DNA of 64,000 nucleotides from Tigriopus japonicus (taxonomy: Eukaryota; Arthropoda; Copepoda; Harpacticoida; Harpacticidae). The notes beneath the pieces were generated by a model. It had not been told where the DNA came from. It made no database searches and saw nothing but the letters and a program-made list of their open reading frames with translations. This document shows positions 1 through 60,739 of this stretch, piece by piece. The stretch lies in contig JAAGOF010000200.1 of assembly GCA_010645155.1 (NCBI GenBank), positions 39,897-103,896 on the forward strand. The letters are read 5' to 3'. Each line of letters opens with the position of its first letter. Position 1 is the first letter of the stretch. Made by a program: the position numbers and the translations under genes.

Positions 1-1520
1 CAGTCCTCCCTGGTTAAACTCATGGGAACAATATCGGCGATAAGGCTATTCACTTTCCGTCGAGCCAAAAGTAAAGTCTCTTGCAAGTCCTCAATGCAAT
101 CGTAACCGCAAAAATGTCTTTGAACTACAATGTCATATTTATAATCCAAAATAAGTAAAGAATAGGACACGGCTTTCTGCTCATACACCAATTGACTTTT
201 GTGCGAGCATTTAGTCAGATTACATAACGTTATCGAGCAAGACTTGGCGGGTGGTGTGGCACAACTTTCCATATCAAAAAAACCGATAAAAGGGGCCTTG
301 AACTTTCTAACAAAGTTGCTAAATTGAAGTCGTTCGCCTTCGGGGGGAAAGTCGAGCTTTTTCGGTTCATGTTGTAAACACTCTGGTAGGTGGTTTTCGA
401 GCGCGCTAGCCAATGAAAACTTTTGCAGACAATTGGGACATGGATGACAATTTTCATAGCGTAGTTCACCCTTAAAATTACGATATGTTTTTCTAAGAAA
501 TTTGTGCAAAGGGTCAATCAAAGCAAAATGGTTGACGGCTTTACCTTGAAACATACATTTGTACAAAACTAGATTAATTGAATGATTACCCGTTAAGTTC
601 CGTGAGGCGCGAATGGGAAAGATATTGTCACCATCTTGGTATAACACGTTGATCCGAAGGGAGAGCTTCGGATTGGCCCGCTCAAATCTTTCAATGTCTT
701 TTATATCTACGGCCACATCCTTGGCGTGAAGCTTTTTTATGTGTTTTTCGATGAAGCGTTGGATATCACTGGGCTCCATTTTCTGTACATGAACAAAGTA
801 GGCCGCAACCGCTCGATAGAAACAGTCCGCTTTCGGACGAGAGTTGAGAGGAATACGGCTCGTTTGCCTCAATTCATTCGGCGTGGACACCACATCAAGA
901 TGACAAGATCCGGACAAGGGGCGACACAATGATACCTCCACTCGAACGGAAAGAACGCGCTCCACTTTCCAGCAAGATCCATCTTCATGAAAATTGTCCA
1001 TTTTGCCAGCCGCAATGTCAAAGCTCGAGGTCAAATCACGGTCCAAGTCATCCTCAATGCATCCCATAAAGGATGGCGCCCGAAAAGGCACATCCAGTTT
1101 GTCCTCGATCTCTCCATTCTCGTTAGCTTTAACGCATTCAGTGATGACTACGATGGAAATTTTGTGAGGACCCTCCGAAAGGAGAACGCGAAGCAATTGC
1201 TTGAGCTTTGAACGAAGGTCACTAGCCACCTTGTAGACGTCGTTTTCCGCACTATCTTCACTGAAGTCGTATTCGAAAGAACGAGCCGCACCGTGGAGAG
1301 CTCGTTGTCTTTCAACGAAGGCGCCCGATGGCGTGTGGGTTCGTCGATGTTGGCTCAAATCAATCCAATTTTCAAACGTAAGGCCACAAATCCAGCATTC
1401 ATAAACAATCGGATGGTAAGCGTGATACCGCCTATTATGCGCTATCCAGCTCCTCTTGTAACTGAATCCAACCTGACAAGTCACGCATTGATAGGGCTTG
1501 CGGGCGAAATTCGTTGACAT
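1..1520 (-). CDS. Family B DNA polymerase, N-terminal part (left arm copy, runs off window)
   Basis: The ATG is at 1520 on the minus strand, and the reading frame follows the right-arm polymerase (9621 onward) with a constant coordinate sum and no indel that I could see. It encodes the two N-terminal C2H2 zinc fingers and the region up to just past the exonuclease I motif. Substitutions relative to the right copy are conservative around the zinc ligands. The gene continues beyond base 1, so completeness cannot be judged. A stretch resembling a 3' splice site sits just before the ATG in both arms. It is likely a second polymerase copy or the other half of an inverted dimer. Confidence 0.8.
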   Translation of the reverse strand, partial: MSTNFARKPYQCVTCQVGFSYKRSWIAHNRRYHAYHPIVYECWICGLTFENWIDLSQHRRTHTPSGAFVERQRALHGAARSFEYDFSEDSAENDVYKVASDLRSKLKQLLRVLLSEGPHKISIVVITECVKANENGEIEDKLDVPFRAPSFMGCIEDDLDRDLTSSFDIAAGKMDNFHEDGSCWKVERVLSVRVEVSLCRPLSGSCHLDVVSTPNELRQTSRIPLNSRPKADCFYRAVAAYFVHVQKMEPSDIQRFIEKHIKKLHAKDVAVDIKDIERFERANPKLSLRINVLYQDGDNIFPIRASRNLTGNHSINLVLYKCMFQGKAVNHFALIDPLHKFLRKTYRNFKGELRYENCHPCPNCLQKFSLASALENHLPECLQHEPKKLDFPPEGERLQFSNFVRKFKAPFIGFFDMESCATPPAKSCSITLCNLTKCSHKSQLVYEQKAVSYSLLILDYKYDIVVQRHFCGYDCIEDLQETLLLARRKVNSLIADIVPMSLTRED

Positions 1521-1684
1521 CTCTCGTCTGTAAGTCGAAAAATAACATTAGAAATATGAAACGCATGGTATGTAACCGAGTTTACTTTACCAAAGTAGAG
1601 GAGTAGGTGGTTTACCGGGCACGATGTAAGTCAGACTGATGAGCCGCATTCAGAAGCTTGTCTCTAAATAGCCCAATATCGCTG

Positions 1685-1945
1685 ACCCTAAATAGTGATG
1701 GTCTCGGGCCGAGAGATAGACTTAAAAGCATATCAACTCTGCGTGTCTCCAAGCATTTAGAGGAATGTTTGACCTTCATTTTCAACGAACAATCAAAACT
1801 GTATGATTTTTGTCGTTATCAGACTTCAAAATACCACCGTGTGTATCTGTACTTATACTCAAAGTATACGTGCACGAGATCGAGACGACACCAAATAATC
1901 GTCTCACCCCTAATCATGAATGTTTAGATCAAAGTAGCTCTGAAT
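1685..1945 (-). repeat. Polymerase 5'-flank repeat, left arm copy
   Basis: About 260 bases upstream of the left polymerase ATG, homologous to 9080-9310 (inverted) and to 25395-25650, which flanks a gag-like gene. In all three places the repeat lies upstream of a coding region in the same relative orientation. It contains a TATA-like box in the polymerase copies. It may be a shared promoter or leader, or the remnant of a repeat inserted before the arms duplicated. Confidence 0.75.
1850..1858 (-). promoter_or_regulatory. TATA-like box of left polymerase copy
   Basis: Read on the minus strand this is GTATAAGTA, identical to the box upstream of the right polymerase copy (9162-9170) and to the TBP-like gene box at 7631-7639. 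It lies about 330 bases before the ATG, so a leader intron is likely. Confidence 0.5.
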
Positions 1946-2107
1946 TTGAGTTTTGATTGAAGATCATCAATCATTTCCAAAACATATTTAAACAGAGTGG
2001 ATGTCAAGTACTAAAACTACCAAAGTTATAGATGAAACAAGTGATTAAATCAGAATTATGTTATGTGATAACCCTCAACTGTGAAAAATCAAGCAAACAC
2101 CAAGTTT

Positions 2108-2253
2108 NNNNNNNNNNNNNNNNNNNNNNNNNNNNNNNNNNNNNNNNNNNNNNNNNNNNNNNNNNNNNNNNNNNNNNNNNNNNNNNNNNNNNNNNNNNNN
2201 NNNNNNNNNNNNNNNNNNNNNNNNNNNNNNNNNNNNNNNNNNNNNNNNNNNNN
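2108..2253. other. Assembly gap (146 N)
   Basis: A run of N covers the 3' end of the left-arm TFIIB-like gene. By comparison with the right arm, the stop codon should fall inside this gap. Any apparent reading frame across it is meaningless. Confidence 1.
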
Positions 2254-2911
2254 TTTGAATTTTCTTGTATAGAGCTAGGATGGTTGGTTTGGAAACATTG
2301 GCAGCTCGCGCGATACGGTTGAGGGGAATATCCAAGCTCTTGTCTAAAACGATCTTATAAAAAGCGCAGGCCACAATTGTGGCTAATTTGGAGTAACTTT
2401 TTTCTTTAATTCTTTCCACTTGACACACCACTTCTGAATTAAGAAAAAATGGGAAATCAAGAGATCCACCCATTTGTTCAACTAATGTGGCTGATGCCAC
2501 TCGGGGTTCGTAGTTCAATTGCTTTTGGACACACCAAAACGTGTGAGGGTCAATACCCGCAGAGTAACACAATTCGTGTTCGGATTTGAATATGCCTCGT
2601 TCGTTTAGGGTGTCAAATAAAGCAAATGTAGCTACAACTTTATTATTGATACGGGACAATCGCTCATCTCCGCGAAGTCGTTGGTAGGTGAAGAAAGTCG
2701 AGTCCATGACTCCCATTGGAATATGGAGATTACACATGATATCACTGAGAAAAATCCGAATTTCACCTTCCACCATCTCATCCACCACTCGCGTTTGATC
2801 AAAATACGTTTTTTCCGTGACCAGCCCGCAGTGAGTACACACTAATTCATGCTCCGGATAGCTCAGGACAAGCGATGGATGATGGCAGAGATCAGGTCGT
2901 GAATACGCCAT
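2254..2911 (-). CDS. TFIIB-like protein, left arm copy (3' end in gap)
   Basis: This is the inverted counterpart of 8232-8900 with very few amino-acid changes. The zinc-ribbon Cys/His residues, both cyclin-like helical regions and the C-terminal helix-turn-helix-like segment are present up to the gap. The start is taken at the ATG at 2911; an in-frame GTG lies 15 bases upstream but is unlikely in a eukaryote. It overlaps the end of the TBP-like gene by 49 bases, as in the right arm. Role as for the right copy: recruitment of RNA polymerase to TBP-bound promoters (inferred). Confidence 0.82.
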
Positions 2912-3471
2912 ATTGATTCTAGGCACTTGGCTCCAACGATGGTATAACTCCCGCTTTGAAACAGGATGATTGTGCCCAGGGATGGTGCCACCTTAACGAA
3001 AAGACCCGGGAAATATTGCCGATTGGATACTACACGGCAATTATCCTCTTTCTTCAAGATTGGACGAAGCCCGCTCAATGGAATGGGGTCATTGAACCTC
3101 CCGCTAGCGCATATGTTATGGATGGTGCAAGGTGAAGCGGACTGGCCGGCCAACTGTAGGATCTCAAGAATCTCTTCACGCGCTTCGTCAATTTGAGACA
3201 AAAATCGAAGGCCCGTGATCGTAACGTAACCAGAGGTCAAACTGATAATGAATGTAAATCGCGTTTTGATTATGCCCAGGTTCCCACAGCACTTCAAACC
3301 ACGATCTCTTATGAGCTCATTCTTCCGAAATGTCCATGAACTGCCCACCTCCTTAGTCCATGAATATCTGAATCCGGCGGTGATATTTTGAACCTGAGGC
3401 AATGAGGCGTTGGAACGGATGTGATTAACGGGATCGATGAGACTGGAGCTGTTGAGAGCTTGATTATTCAT
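2863..3471 (-). CDS. TATA-binding-protein-like factor, left arm copy
   Basis: This 202-residue protein is the inverted counterpart of 7672-8280, with about seven substitutions. Both halves of the TBP saddle are recognisable, including the FPG, LFQSG and VGAK motifs of repeat 2. The start is the ATG at 3471, chosen because a TATA-like box (3504-3513) sits about 40 bases upstream; in-frame codons further upstream would lie before the expected transcription start. Both arm copies are open, which suggests that function has been kept or that the duplication is recent. Confidence 0.85.
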   Translation of the reverse strand: MNNQALNSSSLIDPVNHIRSNASLPQVQNITAGFRYSWTKEVGSSWTFRKNELIRDRGLKCCGNLGIIKTRFTFIISLTSGYVTITGLRFLSQIDEAREEILEILQLAGQSASPCTIHNICASGRFNDPIPLSGLRPILKKEDNCRVVSNRQYFPGLFVKVAPSLGTIILFQSGSYTIVGAKCLESIWRIHDLISAIIHRLS

Positions 3472-3503
3472 GGTATTGTGTCGATTAATCATTAGGCGTA
3501 CAA

Positions 3504-3513
3504 CACTTATATG
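3504..3513 (-). promoter_or_regulatory. TATA-like box of left TBP-like gene
   Basis: On the minus strand this reads CATATAAGTG; the right-arm equivalent is GTATAAGTA. It lies about 40 bases before the TBP-like ATG, in the roughly 195-base divergent region shared with the 262-aa gene. Confidence 0.5.
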
Positions 3514-3599
3514 ATCGAGCGAGAACGGGTCGTTCCGGAATGATCTCGAACTCAACACGCTCCAACATGTCCCAACACGCTTAATCTTCTCTGGGACTA

Positions 3600-3608
3600 G
3601 TATAAATA
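3600..3608 (+). promoter_or_regulatory. TATA box of left 262-aa gene
   Basis: GTATAAATA lies 67 bases before the ATG at 3667, a normal TATA-to-start spacing with a short leader. It is conserved in the right arm (7535-7543, minus strand). Confidence 0.65.
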
Positions 3609-3666
3609 GTGCGATCCCACAGGTTCAAGCTTCATTCGCTCTTGCATTCGCCTTCATTTCAACATC

Positions 3667-4455
3667 ATGTCTGACAACGAAAGTTTGATCTCGGTCTCTT
3701 CCACGATTTCCATGGAGTCTCAAAGCATTTTGTTGGACGAGGTCAGGCCACAACCTTTGGGAGAAGAAGTCGAGCCTCGTCAACGAGTCGATAAGAACAA
3801 GAAGAAAAAGCCAACTCCATCAGAGCTACCAACCTCGGGAGCCGCTACGGAAGCCTCGGGATCTTTGCGGCCTTTGTCTCCTTTGGAGGGTATGCCACCG
3901 GTGCCACCACCACGAGCTTTGCTGGATCAAATAAGGTCTTGGCCCGATTCTCAAAAACGCATTTGGGATTACCCCGAATATTATGACTTTATCCTCAACC
4001 ACAGCGGTCGACAACGGGGTGAGAAGCCGGAGGAGGAGGATGAGAAGAAGGAAGGAGCGGACAAGAAGACGCTGGAGAAGCCGCAGGACGACGGTGAGAC
4101 CCTCGTGAAAAAGCCCAATCCACCGATCCAACCGAGGTTCGACATGACTCGTTCAACCTCGATACCATCAACATCATCGGCCAACGTGGAGAATCGTCGT
4201 GATCGGAAGAAGAGAACCGGTCAATGGCCGCAAATGAATATTCGATTTGGCAAACAATTTCGGGTCACATCCGGATCCATTAAGGTTCAGGCCACGGCTC
4301 GCGTCCCACAAGCCTATGAATACGATGGTATAACGATTGTACGAACGTGGCAACGCGAATCGGAACCGCCCAAGGAATTTACCCTGAGCATGTCGGCCAT
4401 GGACATGAGGCGTCTGTATCAGGCCTTGAAGAGAATCTTGAATAATGCCAAATGA
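3667..4455 (+). CDS. 262-aa acidic/basic protein with possible PC4-like C-terminal domain, left arm copy
   Basis: The protein starts with a Ser/Glu/Asp-rich segment, then a Lys-rich stretch, a long Pro/Lys/Glu-rich linker that is probably disordered, and a compact C-terminal region (about residues 191-262). That region runs strand-rich from IRFGKQFRV through DGITIVRTW to a helix ending in LYQALKRIL. Order and spacing weakly recall the ssDNA-binding coactivator PC4/SUB1, which also has a Ser/acid-rich then Lys-rich N-terminus, but I cannot score the match. It is transcribed divergently from the TBP-like gene. An AATAAA at 4515-4520 follows the stop. A role in transcription or ssDNA binding is inference. 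Confidence 0.75.
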   Translation: MSDNESLISVSSTISMESQSILLDEVRPQPLGEEVEPRQRVDKNKKKKPTPSELPTSGAATEASGSLRPLSPLEGMPPVPPPRALLDQIRSWPDSQKRIWDYPEYYDFILNHSGRQRGEKPEEEDEKKEGADKKTLEKPQDDGETLVKKPNPPIQPRFDMTRSTSIPSTSSANVENRRDRKKRTGQWPQMNIRFGKQFRVTSGSIKVQATARVPQAYEYDGITIVRTWQRESEPPKEFTLSMSAMDMRRLYQALKRILNNAK

Positions 4456-4514
4456 AGAACAGGGGATAATGGATTGTACTTTCTTTTGAATCGTGTCCAA
4501 TGTAAAAAGTTGTA

Positions 4515-4520
4515 AATAAA
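4515..4520 (+). terminator. Polyadenylation signal of left 262-aa gene
   Basis: AATAAA lies 60 bases after the stop codon, mirrored in the right arm at 6623-6628 on the minus strand. Confidence 0.6.
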
Positions 4521-4658
4521 TGGGAAGAAGCAAGCGGTATCACGCCTGATTTTATTATCATTTGCCTCAAAGTTGATTTTGCATTGCACACTTTGTCTGT
4601 CAACCAGCCATGCCCAGCAGTCACTCTACTTCTTTCTCAAGTACCGCGACTCGGGGGT

Positions 4659-5033
4659 TTATTTTGATTGANCAGATGTAGAAAGGGGTGAAGAAGCCCG
4701 ATCTAGGAAAGATGGATCTTGGAAAGATGAATCATTCAACGAATCTCTTTCATCTTCCCGGGGTGGGGAAAAATCCTTAGGCAATCCTGAGACCACTATC
4801 GGTGTTGTAGGATCAGAATCTCCCGGTGTGTTGTCGTTTTGTTTCAAGTTTGAAGGTGGTTGAGAGCCTTTTCGAAAGTTATCGTCATTTCTGATGGTTA
4901 CTTTGCCACCTTCATTAACATCCAAGTTGTTTATTTGACGAACGTATCTCACATGGCCTTCACTGGCTTTAGACAAGAAGGCATTGTACATAGCTTTGGG
5001 AATCATGTACATAATTGCATATGAAGAAGGCAT
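4659..5033 (-). CDS. 124-aa element protein of unknown function
   Basis: The first 50 residues look folded (Met/Tyr/Ile-rich, then a VRQINN...GGKVTIRND motif). The rest is Ser/Pro/Asp-rich and probably disordered. The last codons lie in the inverted-repeat arm and include the ambiguous base at 4672, so the C-terminus is uncertain. It is the third of three consecutive minus-strand genes in the unique centre, 51 bases after the 153-aa gene. Small proteins in this position beside A32-like ATPases are common in Polinton-like elements and some are virion proteins, but I do not recognise this one. Confidence 0.55.
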   Translation of the reverse strand: MPSSYAIMYMIPKAMYNAFLSKASEGHVRYVRQINNLDVNEGGKVTIRNDDNFRKGSQPPSNLKQNDNTPGDSDPTTPIVVSGLPKDFSPPREDERDSLNDSSFQDPSFLDRASSPLSTSXQSK

Positions 5034-5049
5034 GATGATGATGATTGCG

Positions 5050-5055
5050 ACTTTA
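5050..5055 (-). terminator. Polyadenylation signal after the 153-aa gene
   Basis: AATAAA on the minus strand lies between the stop of the 153-aa gene and the ATG of the 124-aa gene, suggesting separate transcripts. Confidence 0.45.
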
Positions 5056-5084
5056 TTGTTGTTTGATCCTTTCTTAAATATATG

Positions 5085-5546
5085 TTAGTGACGTCCATTC
5101 AGCAAGTTCATTAAAATTGGCAGTACAGCTGAAATTATTAGTCCAAGGTTGCCACCAAGCTGTGGGATCAGCTTCCTTTTGCGATCAATATTGTTGGAGC
5201 TCTTAGCAATGTAACGCAACATCTTTTTCTTCTCCCACAGAGCTTCTCTCAGTTTCTTTTGACTGACAGATGGAATACAATTATTGCACAATGCATTATG
5301 GATACACTCGGACAGAAGGTTAAATGCATCGTTGTTTAAATAGGGTATAATAGTTTTAAAATCCTTTTCTTTGAGTCCCTTAATAGATGATAGAAAATCC
5401 ACGTATTTCTCGACTTTTTGTCGACTGATATTTGACTTGGTCTGTTTTTTGCCGGTCTTCTTCTTCTTCTTCACAGGATCCCCCCGTCGAGCAGAGGAAC
5501 GAGGGGGTCTCGCTTTGACTGGAGATTCTTTAGGTGTAGCTTTCAT
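5085..5546 (-). CDS. 153-aa basic protein with hydrophobic Gly-containing C-terminus (possible minor virion or DNA-condensing protein)
   Basis: Residues about 10-45 are strongly basic (runs of Lys and Arg, nuclear-signal or DNA-binding-like). A helical middle contains LLSECIHNALC and a further Lys-rich segment, and the C-terminus has a Gly-Gly followed by about 18 hydrophobic residues. From memory, proteins of this layout sit beside A32-like ATPases in many invertebrate Polinton-like loci. The combination of basic head and hydrophobic tail recalls adenovirus-type core or membrane-active minor capsid proteins, but no specific homology is claimed. It is 58 bases downstream of the ATPase gene on the same strand. 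Confidence 0.6.
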   Translation of the reverse strand: MKATPKESPVKARPPRSSARRGDPVKKKKKTGKKQTKSNISRQKVEKYVDFLSSIKGLKEKDFKTIIPYLNNDAFNLLSECIHNALCNNCIPSVSQKKLREALWEKKKMLRYIAKSSNNIDRKRKLIPQLGGNLGLIISAVLPILMNLLNGRH

Positions 5547-5604
5547 TGTTCCGATTTCGTCTATTATCGAGACTGCTTTTCTTTCTTAAGTTTGCCATTG
5601 ATCT

Positions 5605-6267
5605 TTAGACGTGATTTTTAGGGACCCAAATGGTCATTGGCGCTTCATGAGGCAAAATCCTGGAACGAATTCTGAGTTGGTCACACGTTTGCTGATGGTG
5701 GTCAAAGAACAGATAACTGTAAGGCTTTTTGGTGGCTGCATAGTAGCTTTCTACGATAAATTGAGAGTTTTTGGGATTGACTTGACGGGCAAACGAGGAA
5801 ATTTGAAGAGCGTCACGAGGGTTCTTGAAGACGGATATGTACGTGCTATTGAGAGAAATCTGTCTAAAGATGGGATTCTTGTCAAAGAGATTTTGGGATA
5901 AGAGAAAGACTGCACACTTGGCGTGATGGGATAACACCGTGAAGAGTTCTATGACGTCCGAAGATAATTTATGCGCAAAGTCATCGATGACTACGATGGA
6001 ACCTCGATCAGTGTAGGGCGTTATTCTTTCAGTAACATCCGCCAGACTAGGCACACCCGACACCCAGGAGTCCACAATGCCTCGTTTTTCAAATTCAGTG
6101 AAAGCCGGTTGCCAATGATTATAGTAGTAAATAACCTTAGGATCTGAAGCGATGTTGATCAAGTCTCGCTTTTGCGTTAAAAAATTTAAAACGTGAGTGG
6201 TTTTGCCACTCCCACTACCCCCGCAAACTAGCCACGTAAAGGGAAACTTGAATCTCATGTCGTACAT
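5605..6267 (-). CDS. A32-like (FtsK/HerA superfamily) genome-packaging ATPase
   Basis: This 220-residue protein has a Walker A motif GGSGSGKTT at residues 16-24 and a Walker B motif IVVIDDF at 91-97, followed by a sensor-like FLLSQN segment. The N-terminus (MYDMRFKFPF before Walker A) and the HWQP segment after the first strand are typical of the short ATPases of Polintons, adintoviruses and virophage-like elements. In that family the ATPase pumps DNA into preformed capsids. Its presence argues that the element derives from a virion-forming virus even though no capsid gene is in the window. It is intact, single-copy and lies in the unique centre. The ATG at 6267 is the only reasonable start. 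Confidence 0.9.
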   Translation of the reverse strand: MYDMRFKFPFTWLVCGGSGSGKTTHVLNFLTQKRDLINIASDPKVIYYYNHWQPAFTEFEKRGIVDSWVSGVPSLADVTERITPYTDRGSIVVIDDFAHKLSSDVIELFTVLSHHAKCAVFLLSQNLFDKNPIFRQISLNSTYISVFKNPRDALQISSFARQVNPKNSQFIVESYYAATKKPYSYLFFDHHQQTCDQLRIRSRILPHEAPMTIWVPKNHV

Positions 6268-6687
6268 TTTGATTCACTTTTTTCCTTCCCTTAGCTATCG
6301 TAATATCTTAAATATTAAGAATTCATGCGATCCGACTATAACCTTCTTAGTCAAAGCGTCGTCATACTCATTTTGAGATTATGTCTCGTGTTTAGTGAAA
6401 GTTGGATTGTCTAACCTATTGTCGATCTCAAAAAATGGCTATAGACTAACCAATATGGCAACGCTGGTCAATCAAAATAAACCCCCCGAGTCGTCGCGGT
6501 ACTTGAGAAAGAAGTAGAGTGACTGCTGGGCATGGCAGGTTGACAGACAAAGTGTGCAATGCAAAATCAACTTTGAGGCAAATGATAATAAAATCAGGCG
6601 TGATACCGCTTGCTTCTTCCCATTTATTTACAACTTTTTACATTGGACACGATTCAAAAGAAAGTACAATCCATTATCCCCTGTTCT

Positions 6688-7476
6688 TCATTTGGCATTA
6701 TTCAAGATTCTCTTCAAGGCCTGATACAGACGTCTCATGTCCATGACCGACATGCTCAGGGTAAATTCCTTGGGCGGTTCCGATTCGCGTTGCCACGTTC
6801 GTACAATCGTTATACCGTCGTATTCATAGGCTTGTGGGACGCGAGAAGTGGCCTGAACCTTAATGGATCCGGATGTGACCCGAAATTGTTTGCCAAATCG
6901 AATATTCATTTGCGGCCATTGACCGGTTCTCTTCTTCCGATCACGACGATTCTCCACGTTGGCCGATGATGTTGATGGTATCGAGGTTGAACGAGTCATG
7001 TCGAACCTCGGTTGGGTCGGTGGATTGGGCTTTTTCACGAGGGCCTCACCGTCGTCCCGCGGCTTCTCCAGCGTCTTCTTGTCCGCTCCTTCCTTCTTCT
7101 CATCCTCCTCCTCCGGCTTCTCACCCCGTTGTCGACCGCTGTGGTTGAGGATAAAGTCGTAATATTCGGGGTAATCCCAAATGCGTTTTTGAGAATCGGG
7201 CCAAGACCTTATTTGATCTAGCAAAGCTCGTGGTGGTGGCACCGGTGGCATACCCTCCAAAGGAGACAAAGGCCGCAAAGATCCCGAGGCTCCCGTAGCG
7301 GCTCCCGAGGTTGGCAGCTCTGATGGAGTCGGCTTTTTCTTCTTGTTCTTATCGACTCGTTGACGGGGCTCGACTTCTTCTCCCAAAGGTTGTGGCCTGT
7401 CCTCGTCCAACAAAATGCTTTGAGACTCCATGGAAATCGTGGAAGAGACCGAGATCAAACTTTCGTTGTCAGACAT
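6688..7476 (-). CDS. 262-aa acidic/basic protein with possible PC4-like C-terminal domain, right arm copy
   Basis: Same length and layout as the left-arm copy (3667-4455), with roughly eight substitutions, most of them in the low-complexity linker. The C-terminal domain is nearly unchanged, which suggests that it is the functional part. It is divergent from the TBP-like gene across a 195-base intergenic region that holds both promoters. An AATAAA (6623-6628, minus strand) follows the stop. Confidence 0.75.
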   Translation of the reverse strand: MSDNESLISVSSTISMESQSILLDEDRPQPLGEEVEPRQRVDKNKKKKPTPSELPTSGAATGASGSLRPLSPLEGMPPVPPPRALLDQIRSWPDSQKRIWDYPEYYDFILNHSGRQRGEKPEEEDEKKEGADKKTLEKPRDDGEALVKKPNPPTQPRFDMTRSTSIPSTSSANVENRRDRKKRTGQWPQMNIRFGKQFRVTSGSIKVQATSRVPQAYEYDGITIVRTWQRESEPPKEFTLSMSVMDMRRLYQALKRILNNAK

Positions 7477-7534
7477 GATGTTGAAATGAAGGCGAATGCA
7501 AGAGCGAATGAAGCTTGAACCTGTGGGATCGCTC

Positions 7535-7543
7535 TATTTATAC
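7535..7543 (-). promoter_or_regulatory. TATA box of right 262-aa gene
   Basis: GTATAAATA on the minus strand, 59-67 bases upstream of the ATG at 7476; mirrored at 3600-3608. Confidence 0.65.
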
Positions 7544-7630
7544 TAGTCCCAGAGAAGATTAAGCGTGTTGGGACATGTTGGAGCGTGTCGAGTTCGAGAT
7601 CATTCCGGAACGACCCGTTCTCGCTCGATC

Positions 7631-7639
7631 GTATAAGTA
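7631..7639 (+). promoter_or_regulatory. TATA box of right TBP-like gene
   Basis: GTATAAGTA begins 41 bases before the ATG at 7672. It supports that start over upstream in-frame codons and matches the box before the polymerase gene (9162-9170). Confidence 0.6.
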
Positions 7640-7671
7640 TTGCACGCCTAATGATTAATCGACACAATACC

Positions 7672-8280
7672 ATGAATAATCAAGCTCTCAACAGCTCCAG
7701 TCTCATCGATCCCGTTAATCACATCCGTTCCAACGCCTCATTGCCTCAGGTTCAAAATATCACCGCCGGATTCAGATATTCATGGACTAAGGAGGTGGCC
7801 AGTTCATGGACATTTCGGAAGAATGAGCTCATAAGAGACCGTGGTTTGAAGTGCTGTGGGAACCTGGGCATTATCAAAACGCGATTTACATTCATAATCA
7901 GTTTGACCTCGGGTTACGTCACGATCACGGGCCTTCGACTTTTGTCTCAAATTGACGAAGCGCGTGAAGAGATTCTTGAGATCCTACAGTTGACCGGCCA
8001 GCCCGCTTCACCTTGCACCATCCATAACATATGCGCTAGCGGGAGGTTCAATGACCCCATCCCATTGAGCGGGCTTCGTCCAATCTTGAAGAAAGAGGAT
8101 AATTACAGTGTAGTATCCAATCGGCAATATTTCCCGGGTCTTTTCGTTAAGGTGGCACCATCCCTGGGTACAATCATCTTATTTCAAAGCGGGAGTTATT
8201 CCATCGTGGGAGCCAAGTGCCTAGAATCAATATGGCGTATTCACGATCTGATCTCTGCCATCATCCATCGCTTGTCCTAA
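7672..8280 (+). CDS. TATA-binding-protein-like transcription factor
   Basis: This 202-residue protein is about the size of the conserved TBP core. The two direct repeats of the TBP saddle are visible: repeat 1 at about 25-108 (QNI near 28, SGYVTITG at 80-87) and repeat 2 at about 114-202 (IHNICASG at 117-124, FPGLF at 154-158, LFQSG at 170-174, VGAK at 179-182). In cellular TBP the Phe residues of the FPG and IFxSG motifs kink the TATA box. Repeat 2 keeps both, while repeat 1 has SLTSG where an IFSSG-like motif is expected, so binding may be altered. The 3' end overlaps the TFIIB-like gene by 49 bases in another frame. The likely role is promoter recognition for the element's own genes. Family assignment is by motif order. 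Confidence 0.87.
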   Translation: MNNQALNSSSLIDPVNHIRSNASLPQVQNITAGFRYSWTKEVASSWTFRKNELIRDRGLKCCGNLGIIKTRFTFIISLTSGYVTITGLRLLSQIDEAREEILEILQLTGQPASPCTIHNICASGRFNDPIPLSGLRPILKKEDNYSVVSNRQYFPGLFVKVAPSLGTIILFQSGSYSIVGAKCLESIWRIHDLISAIIHRLS

Positions 8281-8900
8281 GCTATCCGGAGCATGAATTA
8301 GTGTGTACTCACTGCGGGCTGGTCACGGAAAAAACGTATTTTGATCAAACGCGAGTGGTGGATGAGATGGTGGAAGGTGAAATTCGGATTTTTCTCAGTG
8401 ATATCATGTGTAATCTCCATATTCCAATGGGAGTCATGGACTCGACTTTCTTCACCTACCAACGACTTCGCGGAGATGAGCGATTGTCCCGTATCAATAA
8501 TAAAGTTGTAGCTACATTCGCTTTATTTGACACCCTAAACGAACGAGGCATATTCAAATCCGAACACGAATTGTGTTACTCTGCGGGTATTGACCCTCAC
8601 ACGTTTTGGTGTGTCCAAAAGCAATTGAACTACGAACCACGGGTGGCATCAGCCACATTAGTTGAACAAATGGGTGGATCTCTTGATTTCCCGTTTTTTC
8701 TTAATACGGAAGTGGTGTGTCAGGTGGAAAGAATTAAAGAAAAAAGTTACTCCAAATTAGCCACAATTGTGGCCTGCGCTTTTTATAAGATCGTTTTAGA
8801 CAAGAGCTTGGATATTCCCCTCAACCGTATCGCTCGAGCTGCCAATGTTTCCAAACCAACCATCCTAGCTCTATACAAGAAAATTCAAAATAATCCATGA
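8232..8900 (+). CDS. TFIIB-like transcription factor
   Basis: This 222-residue protein has an N-terminal zinc ribbon (C9, H11, C25, C28, with the CGLV motif typical of TFIIB/TFB) and then two cyclin-like helical regions at about 84-135 and 158-219. The last contains a helix-turn-helix-like segment (RIARAANVSKPTI). Cellular TFIIB is about 310-320 residues, so this is a compact version with a short linker. In cells TFIIB bridges TBP-DNA and RNA polymerase II. The start is the ATG at 8232; a GTG 15 bases upstream is in frame but not used here. It overlaps the TBP-like gene, implying a shared transcript or an internal promoter. AATAAA follows at 8929. Confidence 0.87.
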   Translation: MAYSRSDLCHHPSLVLSYPEHELVCTHCGLVTEKTYFDQTRVVDEMVEGEIRIFLSDIMCNLHIPMGVMDSTFFTYQRLRGDERLSRINNKVVATFALFDTLNERGIFKSEHELCYSAGIDPHTFWCVQKQLNYEPRVASATLVEQMGGSLDFPFFLNTEVVCQVERIKEKSYSKLATIVACAFYKIVLDKSLDIPLNRIARAANVSKPTILALYKKIQNNP

Positions 8901-8928
8901 AGCGTGTCTATTTCCCAACTAAATTTGA

Positions 8929-8934
8929 AATAAA
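8929..8934 (+). terminator. Polyadenylation signal after TBP/TFIIB-like genes
   Basis: AATAAA lies 28 bases after the TFIIB-like stop; the only such signal after the overlapping pair, consistent with one bicistronic mRNA. Confidence 0.6.
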
Positions 8935-9079
8935 TGACTCATGCAATTTCCGACAGGTGCCTTATTCTCAATGTTACACATGTGCTTTAAATTAGCTCTC
9001 CACCTTTTTGTTCGTTTCACATCCGCCCGTGTTCATCCATCATCCGACCGACTGAATTTTCAAGGTTGTTGGACACCCT

Positions 9080-9310
9080 GTCCTACTTTGATCTAAAGAT
9101 TCGTGATTAGGGGTAAGACGATTATTTGGTGCCGTCTCGATCTCATGCACGTAAACTTTGAGTATAAGTACAGATACACACGGTGGTATTTTGAAGTCTG
9201 ATAACGACAAAAATCATACAGTTTTGATTGTTCCTCTAAATGCTTGGAGACACGCAGAGTTGATATGTTTTTAAGTCTATCTCTCGGCCCGAGACCATCA
9301 CTATTTTGTC
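9080..9310 (+). repeat. Polymerase 5'-flank repeat, right arm copy
   Basis: This stretch is homologous to 1685-1945 (inverted) and 25395-25650 (inverted). It lies upstream of the polymerase ATG, with a TATA-like box at 9162-9170. Conserved segments include the run from the TATA region through the shared TATTTTGAAGTCTGA segment to the GTCTATCTC segment. Confidence 0.75.
9162..9170 (+). promoter_or_regulatory. TATA-like box of polymerase gene
   Basis: GTATAAGTA, the same sequence as the TBP-like gene box, lies about 450 bases before the ATG. A splice-acceptor-like pyrimidine tract ending in CAG directly before the ATG (around 9600-9613) suggests a leader intron. Confidence 0.5.
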
Positions 9311-9475
9311 CAAAAAGTTTGGGCAGGAAACTGCGTTGTCGCTCTCTATTCCTGCCCCATCAGCCTGCCGTGTAGACGATGCCAGCCAGCACTGACGAAA
9401 GACAATTGCCACACTCCAGGTGCGCTCAGTCGTGAACCTGGGAAGTTAGGGAGGGTCATTGCCATTAGACTATTT
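9307..9475. other. Arm-specific insertion upstream of polymerase
   Basis: About 165 bases are present only in the right arm; the left arm has about 18 unrelated bases between the same flanks. I see no coding content or clear terminal repeats. It shows that the arms have diverged by events other than point mutation. Confidence 0.6.
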
Positions 9476-9620
9476 AGAGACAAGCTTCAGAATGCTGCTC
9501 ATCAGTCTGACTTACATCGTGCCCGGTAAACCACCTACTCCTCTACTCTGGTAAAGTAAACTCGGTTACACACCATGCGTTTCATATTTCTAATGTTATT
9601 TTTCGACTTACAGACGAGAG

Positions 9621-12600
9621 ATGTCGACGAATTTCACCCGCAAGCCCTATCAATGCGTGACTTGTCAGGTTGGCTTCAGTAACAAGAGGAATTGGACTGT
9701 TCACAATAGGCGGTTTCACGCTTTCCATCCGATTGTCTATGAATGCTGGATTTGCGGCATTACGTTTGAAAATTGGATTGATTTGAGCCAACATCGACGA
9801 AGCCACACGCCATCGGGCGCCTTCGTTGAAAGGCAGCGAGCTCTCCACGGTGCGGCTCGTTCTTTCGAATACGACTTTAGTGAAGATAGTGCGGAAAACG
9901 ATGTCTACAAGGTGGCTAGTGACCTTCGTTCAAAGCTCAAGCAATTGCTTCGCGTTCTCCTTTCGGAGGGTCCTCACAAAATTTCCATCGTAGTCATCAC
10001 TGAATGCGTTAAAGCTAACGAGAATGGAGAGATTGAGGACAAACTGGATGTGCCTTTTCGCGCCCCATCCTTTATGGGTCGTATTGAAGATGACTTGGAC
10101 CGTGATTTGGCCTCGAGCTTTGACATTGTGGCTGGCAAAATGGACAATTTTCATGAAGATGGATCTTGCTGGAAAGTGGAGCGCGTCCTTTCCGTTCGAG
10201 TGGAGGTATCATTGTGTCGTCCCTTGTCCGGATCTTGTCATCTTGATGTGGTGTCCACGCCGAATGAATTGAGGCAAACGAGCCGTATTCCTCTTAACTC
10301 TCGTCCGAAAGCGGACTGTTTCTATCGAGCGGTTGCGGCCTACTTTGTTCATGTACAGAAAATGGAGCCCAGTGATATCCAACGCTTCATCGAAAAACAC
10401 ATAAAAAAGCTTCACGCCAAGGATGTGGCTGTAGATATAAAAGACATTGAAAGATTTGAGCGGGCCAATCCGAAGCTCTCCCTTCGGATCAACGTGTTAT
10501 ACCAAGACGGAGACAATATCTTTCCCATTCGCGCCTCACGGAACTTAACGGGTAATCATTCAATTAATCTAGTTTTGTACAAATGTATGTTTCAAGGTAA
10601 AGCCGTAAGCCATTTTGCTTTGATTGACCCTTTGCACAAATTTCTTAGAAAAACATATCGTACTTCTCAAGGTAAATTGCAGTATGAGAACTGTCATCCA
10701 TGCCCCAATTGTCTGCAAAAGTTTTCACGCGCCAGTGTGCTTGATAAACACCTACCAGAGTGTTTACAACATGAGCCGAAAAAGCTCGACTTTCCCCCTG
10801 AAGGCGAACGACTTCAATTTAGCAACTTTGTTAGAAAATTCAAGGCCCCCTTTATCGGTTTTTTTGATATGGAAAGTTGTGCCACACCACCCGCCAAGTC
10901 TTGCTCGATAACGTCATGCAATCTGACTGCATGCTCGCACAAAAGTCAATTGGTGTATGAGCAGAAAGCCGTGTCCTACTCTTTACTAATTTTGGATTAT
11001 AACTACGACATTGTAGTTCAAAGGCATTTTTGCGGTTACGATTGCATTGAGGACTTGCAAGAGACTTTACTTTTGGCTCGACGGAAAGTGAATAGCCTTA
11101 TCGCCGATATTGTTCCCATGAGTTTAACCAGGGAGGACTGTCTTCAGTTTGAACATGCCACTAGTTGTCATATTTGTGAACGAGATTTCCAAGATCGAGA
11201 AGTAGAAATCGTAGTTCGAGATCACTGCCATCTGACGGGTAAATTTTTGGGGGCAGCTCACAATGTCTGTAACTTGAAACGCCCTGAACAAAAACTAGTT
11301 CATATCTATTGCCATAATTTCAGTGGTTACGATTCTCACTTAATATTAAAGCAATTAAAATTCAATCAAGAATTAACAACTATTCAGGGCATGGCTCACA
11401 ATACTGAGAAAATAAGAACGCTGAAAATTCACGACTTTGTGTTTTTGGACTCTTTGTCCTTTTTGCAAGGATCACTAGCTGAATTAGTCATGGACTTGGC
11501 GAAATCTAAGGCCTCATTCAAAGTTCTCGATCAAATGAGTTTTGCTCAGGATGAAAGTAAAAGAGCGCTTTTATTGCGCAAGGGGGTCTTTCCTTATGAG
11601 TTTGCTACTAGTATTGAAGTCCTTTGTAATACCAAGGAAATTCCTAGTCGCGAACATTTTTTTAATCATCTAACTGATTCAGGCGTAAGTGATTCAGACT
11701 ACGAACACGCCCAACGGGTGTTTCGTGAGTTTTCTTGCTCAAACATGCTTGACTACACCATGCTTTACATGCAGCTTGATACGGCGCTTTTGGCTGATGT
11801 CTTTATTCAATTTCGGGAAACGATGTATGACAAGTTTCACCTTGATCCGTGTCAATACATATCTTTGCCAGGCTTTGCCTATGATTGCATGCTCAAGCTT
11901 ACCAAGATTGAAATGGATTTCATTCGAGATCCTGATTTGTTTTTAATGATGGCTAATAATATTCGAGGGGGCTTTTCTTTTGTCAGTAAACGCATGGAGA
12001 GCAACTTTGTGGCAGCCAAAAAAACATTGGCTTCGGATGGTCGATTGATCATGACTCCGGCTCGTCGAAAAGCCTTGTTGTACATTGATGCCAACAATCT
12101 GTATGGGTGGGCCCAGTGTCAGCCATTGCCCATTGGCGAGTATTCATTCTTGAGCGAAAGTGAAATCAAGGATCTGGACATTAATCAACTTAGTCGTGAG
12201 GATGAATATGGCTATATTTTTGAAGTAGACTTGAAGTATCCATCCAGCTTACATGCATTGCATCGTAGTTTCCCTCTGGCTCCGGAAAAAGTAACCGTTT
12301 CTCAAAACATGCTTTCGCCCTATCAGTTACAATGTCAGGAAAAATTAGACATGAAACCAACGAAATCGAGCAAACTATCGGCCACTTTTTATGATAGACA
12401 AAAATATGTGGTACATTACTCTACTCTAAAGTTGTATTTAAAATTGGGAATGCAACTTAAGCAAACTCATAGAGTCGTTCGTTTTCGCCAGTCCAAATTT
12501 CTGAAACAATACATTGATTATTGCACTGAAATGAGACAAAGTGCAACCACGGATTTTAAAAAGCGACTTTTCAAGTTAATGGCCAATTGCATTTACGGCA

Positions 12601-13367
12601 AATTTATAGAAAATACGAGCAAGCATGTAAGAGTCAAGTTTGCCCACAGTAAAGAATATATGATGAAACAAGCCACAAATCCGAGGTTTATGAATTTCTT
12701 GATCATATCCCCTGATTTAGTAGCCGCTTTCCTAAAGTCTCCTGTGACTAAGGCCAAACAGGCCTACCTAGTGGGCTTTTCGATTTTGGACTTGTCCAAA
12801 GAATTTATGTATAGATCGTATTACGAGCACATTTTGCCGGCCTTTGACGGAAAGGCTGAGGTATTGATGAGTGACACGGACAGTTTGTTCATCTCCACCC
12901 CTTATTTGAGTAATCCATTTCAAAGACTTTTACCCATTCTCGACACTTCTAATTTTGATCCCGCTCATCCTCTGGCTTCTTTGGCAAATAAATCTCGTTT
13001 GGGCTACTTCAAATCTGAAACCGGGTCCAAATTGGTGACAAGATTCATTGGACTACGCTCGAAATGTTATGCTTTTGAGACGGAAGGTTCCAAGGACATC
13101 GTGAAGTGTAAGGGTGTGGCTAGAACTTTCAAAAATAAGATTCCCCTAACCCATTTCGAAAAATGTTTAGAAACAATCTCTTCCATCTCCGTTCAGCAAT
13201 TTTCCATTCAAAGTAAAAACCATTTAATGCACATTGTTCGCAGCAACAAATTGGCTTTTTCCAGTTATGATGATAAGCGTTATGTTTTATCTTGCGGAGT
13301 TCACTCACTGCCTTATGGTAGTTCGGAGATTCCGGCCAATTCCCCTACCTGTTCCTTTTGTGTTTAG
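9621..13367 (+). CDS. Protein-primed-type family B DNA polymerase with zinc fingers and endonuclease VII-like motif
   Basis: This intact 1248-residue protein starts with two C2H2 fingers (residues about 12-33 and 42-62); a third, CPNC-type finger lies before the exonuclease. Exo I (FIGFFDMES, about 411-419), an endonuclease VII-like HCHLTG...CN motif (about 535-550), Exo II (HNFSGYDSH) and an Exo III-like YMQLDTALLADV segment follow. Polymerase motif A is DANNLYGW (about 823), motif B is KLMANCIYGK (about 985) and motif C is DTDS (about 1085). This is the DNA_pol_B_2 architecture of Polintons and adintoviruses, which replicate linear genomes from a terminal protein. All catalytic Asp residues are present. 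The first 1520 bases are duplicated in the left arm. AATAAA lies at 13408. Confidence 0.95.
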   Translation: MSTNFTRKPYQCVTCQVGFSNKRNWTVHNRRFHAFHPIVYECWICGITFENWIDLSQHRRSHTPSGAFVERQRALHGAARSFEYDFSEDSAENDVYKVASDLRSKLKQLLRVLLSEGPHKISIVVITECVKANENGEIEDKLDVPFRAPSFMGRIEDDLDRDLASSFDIVAGKMDNFHEDGSCWKVERVLSVRVEVSLCRPLSGSCHLDVVSTPNELRQTSRIPLNSRPKADCFYRAVAAYFVHVQKMEPSDIQRFIEKHIKKLHAKDVAVDIKDIERFERANPKLSLRINVLYQDGDNIFPIRASRNLTGNHSINLVLYKCMFQGKAVSHFALIDPLHKFLRKTYRTSQGKLQYENCHPCPNCLQKFSRASVLDKHLPECLQHEPKKLDFPPEGERLQFSNFVRKFKAPFIGFFDMESCATPPAKSCSITSCNLTACSHKSQLVYEQKAVSYSLLILDYNYDIVVQRHFCGYDCIEDLQETLLLARRKVNSLIADIVPMSLTREDCLQFEHATSCHICERDFQDREVEIVVRDHCHLTGKFLGAAHNVCNLKRPEQKLVHIYCHNFSGYDSHLILKQLKFNQELTTIQGMAHNTEKIRTLKIHDFVFLDSLSFLQGSLAELVMDLAKSKASFKVLDQMSFAQDESKRALLLRKGVFPYEFATSIEVLCNTKEIPSREHFFNHLTDSGVSDSDYEHAQRVFREFSCSNMLDYTMLYMQLDTALLADVFIQFRETMYDKFHLDPCQYISLPGFAYDCMLKLTKIEMDFIRDPDLFLMMANNIRGGFSFVSKRMESNFVAAKKTLASDGRLIMTPARRKALLYIDANNLYGWAQCQPLPIGEYSFLSESEIKDLDINQLSREDEYGYIFEVDLKYPSSLHALHRSFPLAPEKVTVSQNMLSPYQLQCQEKLDMKPTKSSKLSATFYDRQKYVVHYSTLKLYLKLGMQLKQTHRVVRFRQSKFLKQYIDYCTEMRQSATTDFKKRLFKLMANCIYGKFIENTSKHVRVKFAHSKEYMMKQATNPRFMNFLIISPDLVAAFLKSPVTKAKQAYLVGFSILDLSKEFMYRSYYEHILPAFDGKAEVLMSDTDSLFISTPYLSNPFQRLLPILDTSNFDPAHPLASLANKSRLGYFKSETGSKLVTRFIGLRSKCYAFETEGSKDIVKCKGVARTFKNKIPLTHFEKCLETISSISVQQFSIQSKNHLMHIVRSNKLAFSSYDDKRYVLSCGVHSLPYGSSEIPANSPTCSFCV

Positions 13368-13407
13368 TTGTTCCATAACCTTATGTATGATTTTTTATGC
13401 TTGAATG

Positions 13408-13413
13408 AATAAA
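13408..13413 (+). terminator. Polyadenylation signal of polymerase gene
   Basis: AATAAA lies 41 bases after the polymerase stop codon. Confidence 0.6.
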
Positions 13414-13430
13414 AACGTATGTTGGTATCT

Positions 13431-13697
13431 TCATGTTGAGAGTTTTCCTTTATTTATGAGTTGGTCTGTGGTATTAAAATGGTCTTGGAGAAAGGAGATC
13501 AAGTCGTCAACATAACTATTGGACATTGTTGTTGCTCTTACAAGAAATATAATAATGTTAGACATAATCAAACAAGTCAGGACCATCATAGTAAAGCACT
13601 TATATTTTAGAAGCAAGGCTTTAATCCCTCGGGATTCTTCGTTCGCTATCATTTTTGCTTCTTCGGGCGTGAATTGAGCAATTTCTTGCAGTCCCAT
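13431..13697 (-). CDS. 88-aa putative single-pass membrane protein
   Basis: The start is an ATG at 13697. A charged, helical N-terminus is followed by one strongly hydrophobic segment (about residues 36-55, rich in Met, Leu, Ile) and a polar C-terminus. It converges on the polymerase gene with 63 bases between the two stops, a compactness that suggests it belongs to the element. I do not recognise the family. It could be a virion membrane or holin-like protein, or a chance frame. Confidence 0.45.
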   Translation of the reverse strand: MGLQEIAQFTPEEAKMIANEESRGIKALLLKYKCFTMMVLTCLIMSNIIIFLVRATTMSNSYVDDLISFLQDHFNTTDQLINKGKLST

Positions 13698-13879
13698 TTT
13701 TTTTCGTATTTAAAAAACAAACTCGTTAGAGTTTTCGTCGCTTCCATTTCTTATGTAACCAATCTCTTGGTCAAAACCTTCTTTCTGGTAATCCTAACTA
13801 GTTAAAACACTGATTTGCTAATCATTTTTTTAATTGGCTTCAACTTTCAATGACATGAAGTTAAACAAATGTTGTCCAC

Positions 13880-14470
13880 CACTTCTTTTGAGGTTTCTTT
13901 GTTCATTCACCTCTTGTTGCGCACCTGCTCTTTTCCACAGGTTGCGTTAGCCATCAACGCACTTTCCGTATCCCAACTACTCATTTGTTAATCATTTTTT
14001 AATTGACTTTATTTTTCAATGACAGGCAATTAAAAACATTGTCTGTCACTTCCTTTGAGGTTCCTTTGTTCATTCACGTTTGTTTCGCACCTGCTTCTTT
14101 TTCCCCATGATGATGAGTCATCCCTGGGAAATTATTACGTCATCTCATTACATTTTAAATGATTAATGTATTTGAGTCATTATTTTTTTAATTGTACGTA
14201 TTTTGAGCTGTGCAATTTAAACTCACTTCCTTTGAGGTTCAAATTTGTTGTGCACATGCTTTTTTTTTCCAAAATCAGGCCACCTGTGGGTCATTACACA
14301 CTGAGCCGGAAATTAGGGGTTATGCATGATTTACTTGATTGATTATGCAATTTAAACTTTTGTCTTCCTTTCTTTGTTCAAATTTGTTGTGCACCTGCTT
14401 TTTTCCAAAATCAGGCCATTACATCCGGGCCGGAAATTAGGGGTTATGCATGATTCATTTGATTGATTAG
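13880..14470. repeat. Degenerate direct repeats beyond the polymerase
   Basis: Four imperfect copies of a block running from a CTTCCTTTGAGGTT-like segment to GCACCTGCTTTTTTCC begin near 13881, 14047, 14225 and 14360, spaced about 135-180 bases. The last two are each followed by a second shared block (AATTAGGGGTTATGCATGAT, at about 14313 and 14438). No gene is visible from 13,700 to 14,730. These could be subterminal repeats of the viral element, but no matching left end is available. Confidence 0.6.
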
Positions 14471-14731
14471 ATCGAGTCGAAAATCTGGTGCAATCATATA
14501 CTACTGACGTCACTTTATAGCGCAGATTTCAAACATGTGGGAAGTTTATTCAACATTATCATTTTTACCTCACATGACATTTAATTCGTGATATAACTTG
14601 GGGGAGGTGTTGTATTCTCATGACTCGTAGTTTTATGAGCAGACTTGTTCACCTGACAAATCAGCTAAATATACTCACTTGAGTTTGAACCTTCAACGTG
14701 ATCTGGTGTCTTATTATCCAACCTTACACCC

Positions 14732-18001: not shown

Positions 18002-18661
18002 CAATGGGACACTGTAATCGCATGCGTTTTCTTTTCTTACCGCTGGAGCCACCACCCCAACTTCAATCCGCCTGTCTTAGCTTGGAAGAAGCGAGAGTGC
18101 TTCAGTTAAAACGTGATAAATCCCTCCTGTGAAAGGCCTTTTGCCAAAATGAGAACCGAATTGATTAGGGTAGAGACATATCTAAGTCATCAAACAATCA
18201 CGCTCAACATTGGTTGACAAAATGCCGAGCATTTTACGATCGAAATGATTGTGATGATTTCACTTTTCCTCACACTCCAGCCTCAGCTGCCGCGTCTCGT
18301 CTGCCTTCGAGAAGAGAGCGAGCAATTTTGAAATTTCCCGCTAAGGTAACGGAGCGCAGACAGGCAGATGGGCAAAGTAGGGCTGCACTGTGAAGAAGCG
18401 TAATATCATCGCTATCATTTTGATCGTAAAATCCTCAGCATTTTGTCAACCAATGTTGAGAGTGATTGTTTGATGACTTAGATATGTCTCTACCCCAGTC
18501 AATTATGTTCTCATTTTGGCAAAAGGCCTTTTACAGGAGGGATTTATCACGTTTTAACTGAAGCACTCTCGCTTCTTCCAAGCTAAGACAGGCTTTTTGA
18601 AGTTGGGGTGGTGGCTCCAGCGGTAAGAAAAGAAAACACATGTGATTACAGTGTCCCATTG
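18002..18661. mobile_element. Foldback element in Gypsy pol
   Basis: Arms of about 255 bases (18002-18260 and 18410-18661) are inverted copies with few mismatches, starting CAATGGGACACTGTAATC and ending with its complement, around a loop of about 150 bases. No coding region is recognised. A target duplication is not clear. Confidence 0.8.
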
Positions 18662-25355: not shown

Positions 25356-25394
25356 TTTGTTGAGGTTGTTGGGCCAATCAGATATGTCTGAAAC

Positions 25395-25650
25395 AAGCAA
25401 AATGGCTGGTCGTGAGATAGACTCAAAAGCATATCTGCTTTGTGTATCTACAGACATTTAGAGGAACATTTGGCCTTCATTTCCAACGAAAAATCAAAAC
25501 AGCATGACTTTTGTCTATGTCAGACTTCAAAATACCAGCATGTGTACATCTGTGCTTGAGCTTAAAGTTTTCGTGCACGAGATCAAGACTATACCAAATA
25601 ATTCGTGACACTCGTGACATTAATCACGAGTGCTTTGATCTAAAGTTGGA
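25395..25650 (-). repeat. 5'-flank repeat shared with viral polymerase
   Basis: This stretch is homologous to 1685-1945 (same strand) and 9080-9310 (opposite strand). It lies directly upstream of gag-like gene 1, ending at its splice acceptor. The TATA-like box of the viral copies is replaced here by an unrelated sequence. Confidence 0.75.
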
Positions 25651-60184: not shown

Positions 60185-60739
60185 GATATTTGGAGCGAGA
60201 AACCTGAAAAAACGAGTGGAAACGTAAATGCGAGGATCTGATATGTTTCCAAAGATCCACACAGAAAACCAAAAATGTCAACGAGCCTTCAAATCCTTAA
60301 TTATCTCACCCATCATAAAACTCTTCGAACATTTGAAAGGTGAGAAAAGTTTAAAAGGGTCACGTATCTTCGTCGTTATTGTCCAAATGAATGATGAACA
60401 CGCTATGTTTGTAATTTTAAAACCAAAACAATTTCATTAACCTTTAAATCTGTGAACGTTGTCCGGTTCAGCTCTGAACACGTGAACGGTTTCCTTACAA
60501 CTGAGCGTCACTTTGCCTCTTCTTCAGGGTGACCAACTGTTCAAGATCAAAAAGAGCTAAAACTCTCAGTTAACAGGCAAATTTTAGAGCTAGAAGAGTT
60601 TTCTTGGAATAAGAGCTAATTAAGGGCTAAATCTAAAAATACCAAAAACACTAATATTTTCATATTTTTGGACCAAAAATGAGTGATAGGGCCCTTCTAG
60701 ACTTGAAATAAATTGTTTTAATGTGTTCTCTTAATTTCT

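Follow-up and report, generated by a model that had tools for sequence, protein, structure and literature searches.

Results

A predicted initiation pair in a Polinton-type element

A Polinton-type element in the genome of the copepod Tigriopus japonicus carries genes for a TATA-binding protein (TBP) and a TFIIB-family core factor, a combination that is known elsewhere from large DNA viruses. The element lies in a stretch of 64,000 nucleotides (nt) (assembly GCA_010645155.1, contig JAAGOF010000200.1, positions 39,897–103,896 of the forward strand), hereafter called the window; its contig is referred to as C105. It is probable that the two proteins form a dedicated pair that steers host RNA polymerase II to the promoters of the element. 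A preliminary description of this DNA had proposed a two-repeat TBP-like protein, overlapped by a gene for a TFIIB-like protein with a zinc ribbon and two cyclin regions, beside an A32-like ATPase and a family B polymerase. The polymerase was confirmed and is of type B2 (PolB; Table 1), and both initiation proteins agree with their descriptions, as set out below. For the ATPase, the predicted open reading frame (ORF) does match AAA_22 and Pox_A32, but neither score reaches the cut-off.

Both TBP repeats are present in the element TBP, with Pfam TBP matching two separate stretches of the ORF (9.2e-11). The pair of DNA-intercalating phenylalanines (Phe) of the C-terminal lobe is kept in all six element TBP rows (F, F); in the same six rows the N-lobe Phe positions are C, T or I and L, and the intercalating pair is gone. 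Archaeal TBPs retain F and E at the compared positions in 14 of 14 rows. The host TLF, itself a TBP-family protein, retains only one of the four intercalating Phe, and the four-Phe feature is therefore not decisive for membership of the family.

The zinc ribbon of the element TFIIB matched Zn_Ribbon_TF with an E value of 3.3e-5, below the Pfam cut-off, and its ligands (C-x-H and C-x2-C) are present in 7/7 rows; the first zinc knuckle is one residue shorter than that of human TFIIB. Two cyclin folds were found in the predicted structure of the right copy, and all 40 Foldseek matches to the PDB at E ≤ 0.001 were TFIIB-, TFB- or Brf-type chains. Of the 31 fold matches in BFVD at the same threshold, 16 carried the name TFIIB, TFB or Brf/TFIIB; almost all of these came from large DNA viruses. 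Brf1 and Brf2 chains were among the fold matches, one of them the Ty3-TFIIIB entry 7q5b, which lends something to the idea that the pair recruits RNA polymerase III, or ties the integrase to RNA polymerase III promoters, rather than serving RNA polymerase II; we consider this quite improbable. In the alignment, the cyclin core of the element protein starts near residue 40, equivalent to human residue 106, and approximately ten residues separate ribbon and core; the B-reader and B-linker are therefore essentially absent. For this reason the protein is designated a TFIIB-family core factor and not a complete TFIIB. Its gene overlaps that of TBP by 49 nt, with the TFIIB ATG (8232) inside the TBP frame and flanked by A at −3 and G at +4. 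Two further copies of the element, on contigs C12 and C11, share the overlap. The TBP tail of the C11 copy has degenerated, and the TFIIB gene on contig C76 is interrupted by a stop codon.

Residues of the known TBP-TFIIB contact are replaced on both sides

Contact positions are given here in what we take, in part, to be the human residue numbering. The TBP position E284 is N in 6/6 element rows, and E286 is Q or R. On the TFIIB side, where residue mapping depends on a weak pairwise profile alignment, R169 is replaced by N and K188 by P in all seven element rows, and R154 by I or F. These positions matter in the human system: TFIIB mutants R169E and K188E are described as binding TBP less well in the available part of PMC6004067, and TBP mutants E284R and E286R as reducing transcription in that of PMC7221094. 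Because contact residues are replaced on both partners of a single contact, the changes are consistent with a private TBP-TFIIB pair.

The pair recurs beside the polymerase in other copies

The copy on C12 (a 12.8-Mb contig) presents the genes in the following order: a presumably capsid-like 145-aa (amino acid) piece (−), p170 (+), an integrase with rve and chromodomain (+; Pfam rve 2.1e-16, Chromo 1.1e-5), a 423-aa protein (+), a 441-aa protein (−), p153 (−), ATPase (−), p262 (−), TBP (+), TFIIB (+) and PolB (+). The C11 copy keeps this order, interrupted by an N gap, and comprises a 423-aa-type gene (406-aa frame), the 441-aa gene, TBP (63% identity), TFIIB (65%) and PolB (74% in the best piece). 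Gene order is thus common to C105, C12 and C11. The classification of the element as Polinton/adintovirus-like gains support because the C12 copy joins rve/chromodomain integrase, ATPase, PolB and the initiation pair in one run. No adenovirus-type protease was matched among six C12 ORFs scanned, in a copy where N gaps remain, and the 145-aa and 423-aa ORFs, which are presumed to resemble capsid proteins, had no relevant Pfam match. No inverted repeat was found between the left and right stretches of the C12 copy, and the C105 arms are an inverted duplication rather than classical ends.

Across the genome there are seven TBP matches; TFIIB overlaps four of them and lies 11 nt away from a fifth. 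PolB is located within 3.4 kb of four TBP matches; six share a contig with PolB at a distance of no more than 10.5 kb, and contig C76 has no PolB match. This proximity analysis took in 24 of 42 PolB, 5 of 9 ATPase and 10 of 13 p262 matches, the remainder being on the same contigs or no nearer neighbors. The preliminary description had staked its case on the pair recurring beside the polymerase or ATPase in other copies and on a TBP saddle and cyclin folds in predicted structures. The recurrence is seen here, with pair, ATPase and PolB together on C12; cyclin folds are predicted, as given above, and TBP is clearly recognized by Pfam.

Relatives exist at 59–67% identity; the protein database yielded three TBP, four TFIIB and one p262 proteins. 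All three database TBPs have a TFIIB match on a contig of equal size (1790, 1454 and 4043), presumably the same contigs, and the fourth TFIIB (contig 2501) is without a TBP match. Scans of viral contigs with element TBP, TFIIB and PolB and with host TBP returned no relatives, an absence of little weight because each scan used only two to six short patterns; tblastn of the element TBP against phage records gave no matches.

Selection and origin

Ratios of nonsynonymous to synonymous substitution (dN/dS) were low for TBP (0.15–0.24 in six of ten pairs, the other four, all involving C11, being saturated), for TFIIB (0.07–0.34 in nine comparisons, four with dS above 2 and the left arm left out) and for PolB (0.15 and 0.18). 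Selection acted before or between insertions. These values bear on the main rival to a dedicated initiation pair, namely that element TBP and TFIIB are decoys, which tie up host factors or promoters in dead-end complexes and reduce host transcription, without serving the promoters of the element. The missing B-reader and B-linker and the lost N-lobe Phe pair could make for poor initiators. However, both partners have been kept together under low dN/dS, the zinc ribbon ligands are retained in every row, and host-contact residues are replaced on both sides, whereas a decoy should keep them. We therefore regard decoys as unlikely.

Viruses commonly capture genes, and the host carries canonical TBP and TLF genes that could have served as a source. 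That the element recently captured host TBP and TFIIB copies, or that the two genes are adjacent by chance, nevertheless has very little probability. Element and host TBP share only 21.4% identity over 173 columns, and gene order is identical in the three copies. In a tree of 22 rows (six element TBPs, the TBP and TLF of the host, and 14 archaeal loci of the 80 fetched), in which bootstrap values were not fully settled, the element TBPs formed one clade (100/100) whose branch measured 5.35 changes per column. The two host proteins grouped together (95/99). The low identity and very long branch make recent capture unlikely. Phylogeny had been proposed as the means to separate host capture from viral origin; the tree, which held no giant-virus TBP, speaks to recent capture and is compatible with both viral derivation and ancient capture.

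Candidate promoter boxes

TATA-like boxes of the form TATWTAAGA precede three genes of the C12 copy, at 60 nt from the capsid-like gene and at 47 nt from both the 441-aa gene and the ATPase gene; p262 of C12 has TATAAATA 66 nt before its ATG. In the diverged copy on C96, TATTTAAGA is located 50 nt ahead of the ATPase ATG. The corresponding boxes of the window are given in Table 1. A TATA-type box lies 35–75 nt before the ATG in 4/7 chosen C12 starts, compared with 5% of stretches generally (P 1.9e-4, with motif and distance range picked after inspection).

Organization of the window copy

The polymerase half of the element is present twice in the window, head to head, as an inverted duplicate (Table 1). 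This arrangement spans window positions 1–14505 and lacks the integrase and capsid side; no retroviral-type integrase was found in the readable part of the copy. The arms differ, with a TBP dS of 0.076 between them and 99% identity at the PolB end, as if they were the joined products of two related genomes or of snap-back replication. N runs occur in the window at 2108–2253 and 4672, and several other copies are similarly interrupted. A second PolB palindrome, of two abutting inverted PolB matches with a different breakpoint, is located at C25:506567-509636. Ahead of the PolB ATG, positions 9470–9620 resemble a short 5′ leader intron (gtaaag ... ttacag) when read by eye, which would fit nuclear transcription.

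Table 1. Coordinates of element features and candidate promoter boxes in the window
Feature	Position	Strand	Basis or remark
PolB, left copy, N-terminal part	1..1520	-	extends beyond the window to C105:37673; limit 1520 mirrored from right copy
Element TFIIB, left copy	2254..2911	-	98% identity across residues 1-225; reaches into an N run (2108-2253) at its end
Element TBP, left copy	2863..3492	-	96% identical
p262, left copy	3667..4455	+	
441-aa gene, start only	4659..5033	-	truncated by inversion breakpoint near 4650
TATTTAAGA box, 47 nt upstream of ATG of 441-aa gene remnant	5072..5080	-	
p153, basic	5085..5546	-	ORF; no Pfam match; same gene in C12 copy
A32-like packaging ATPase	5605..6267	-	AAA_22 1.3e-4, Pox_A32 0.002, both below cut-off
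TATTTAAGA box, 47 nt upstream of ATPase ATG	6306..6314	-	
p262, right copy, divergent to TBP	6688..7476	-	ORF; no Pfam match; retained in other copies
TATAAATA box, 66 nt upstream of p262 ATG	7535..7542	-	
Element TBP, two lobes, right copy	7651..8280	+	second ATG at 7672; Pfam TBP 9.2e-11 in two stretches; PDB matches
Element TFIIB, right copy, zinc ribbon and two cyclin bundles	8232..8900	+	Zn_Ribbon_TF 3.3e-5, below cut-off; predicted fold; start analysis
PolB (type B2), two N-terminal C2H2 fingers, right copy	9621..13367	+	DNA_pol_B_2 3.4e-18, zf-C2H2 3.7e-9
Right subterminal stretch with diverged repeats	13368..14505	.	arm homology fades ~14470-14505

The p262 protein was considered as a third, PC4/Sub1-like factor on the presumption that its end resembles PC4. 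This was not supported and is not claimed here: p262 had no Pfam or PDB match, hhalign gave a probability of 0.2%, and an AlphaFold2 model from four sequences had a pLDDT (predicted local distance difference test) of 42.

Outside the element, window positions 18002–18661 contain a 281-nt inverted repeat (92%, arms 98 nt apart), adjoined by two ORFs, one with a THAP domain and one for a DDE_Tnp_4 transposase. The long ORFs at 23694–25457, 45845–47392 and 58469–60262 are related to one another, have ends that resemble zinc knuckles and look like retrotransposon gag proteins.

Discussion

In the mechanism that we propose, the two overlapping frames would first yield a TBP and a compact TFIIB that belong to the element; the genes are intact and their dN/dS is low, and formation of the products is predicted. 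The element TBP would then read the TATWTAAGA boxes that lie 47–60 nt before several genes. Element TFIIB would dock on this TBP via a remade surface, replaced according to the alignment and probably poorly shared with host proteins, and its zinc ribbon would recruit one of the host RNA polymerases, of which II is the most likely. Use of a host enzyme is suggested because no match to an RNA polymerase subunit came up among the 11 element genes scanned. The outcome would be selective transcription of element genes, perhaps virion genes, with less reliance on host TFIID and TFIIB. The boxes and the altered contact residues lend indirect support to the suggestion of the preliminary description that the element may set its own promoter specificity. 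A more complete version is tentative and in our view somewhat doubtful: a private initiation system, isolated from the TFIID and TFIIB of the host, in which a TBP intercalating with one lobe and a reader-less TFIIB core, locked together by a contact with N:N in place of E284:R169, act at their own TATWTAAGA boxes and take over host RNA polymerase II.

Several observations weigh against dedicated initiation at element promoters. DNA binding by the element TBP may be weak because the N-lobe Phe pair is lost. The starts of the C12 integrase, 423-aa, p153 and TFIIB genes have no TATA-type match within 220 nt, and that of C12 PolB has one only at 164 nt. No box was found before the 441-aa (~100 nt readable), TBP or PolB starts of the C11 copy. 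L038 has three box matches where 0.25 were expected, but one of the three has no assigned gene, and over its whole length the window shows no enrichment (three against 1.36 expected, with 16/100 shuffles reaching as many). The C12 copy contains two N gaps of ~2.3 kb each, which hide ~4.6 kb. Lastly, PolB matches are found on 15 contigs, with a TBP match on five and none on ten, several of the ten being fragments. Among the contigs without TBP, C7 and the end of C96 were read. On C7 (1269645-1273427), the frame of a PolB with 50% identity is open, and the ORFs of at least 80 aa in the 5.5 kb upstream include neither TBP nor TFIIB, which suggests either another lineage or a retained gene. Because PolB matches on 10/15 contigs, including C7, are without TBP, the TBP-TFIIB module marks one element lineage.

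The element resembles Polinton/Maverick elements and adintoviruses in its type-B2 polymerase, its chromodomain-bearing rve integrase, an ATPase that is A32-like at scores below the cut-off, and integration into an animal genome (the conserved Polinton gene set is compared here as given in the available part of PMC4028283), and differs from them in having TBP and TFIIB genes. TFIIB and TBP terms are absent from the main text of the Polinton/adintovirus papers PMC11071296, PMC11071308 and PMC10120064, and a search for TFIIB and TATA in the available part of PMC4028283 gave no occurrence of TFIIB. Open papers naming both polinton and TFIIB concern, in the available parts of those examined, giant viruses or their marker genes. 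The preliminary description knew of no TBP plus TFIIB module in small elements of this class, and we likewise found no description of TBP or TFIIB in Polintons or adintoviruses in the open papers searched; subscription papers were outside the scope of that search, and we make no claim that the module is unpublished.

Giant viruses (Nucleocytoviricota) also encode TBP plus TFIIB, according to the available parts of PMC12085832 and PMC11464507. Their genomes are large and often encode an RNA polymerase as well, unlike the small integrating element and overlapping genes described here. A parallel with a host polymerase is offered by ORF24 of Kaposi's sarcoma-associated herpesvirus (KSHV), a late-promoter TBP mimic with a viral TBP fold that works with host RNA polymerase II, has lost the TFIIB-contact glutamates and reads the TATTWAA boxes of KSHV late promoters. 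In contrast to the element TBP, ORF24 keeps and needs all four Phe, and the available part of the source for these points mentions no viral TFIIB of such kind (PMC12529657). The viruses are unrelated, and the parallel is one of working principle only, not of descent. The poxvirus factors VETF-l/Rap94 and VITF-3 are likewise virus-specific TBP/TFIIB pairs but, in the available part of PMC12917281, act with an RNA polymerase of the virus and adopt folds that are extended or ring-shaped.

Virus-coded TBP/TFIIB pairs were thus already known in large DNA viruses, often together with a viral RNA polymerase. Its presence in a small element of the Polinton type would show that machinery for promoter selection can travel without a polymerase. 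The pair also combines, in compact natural form, a TBP-TFIIB contact that has been rewired, a TBP saddle that is half changed and a reader-less TFIIB core; the minimal needs of initiation machinery could be tested directly on two small proteins and a single DNA box. It bears, too, on how initiation factors spread among related DNA viruses.
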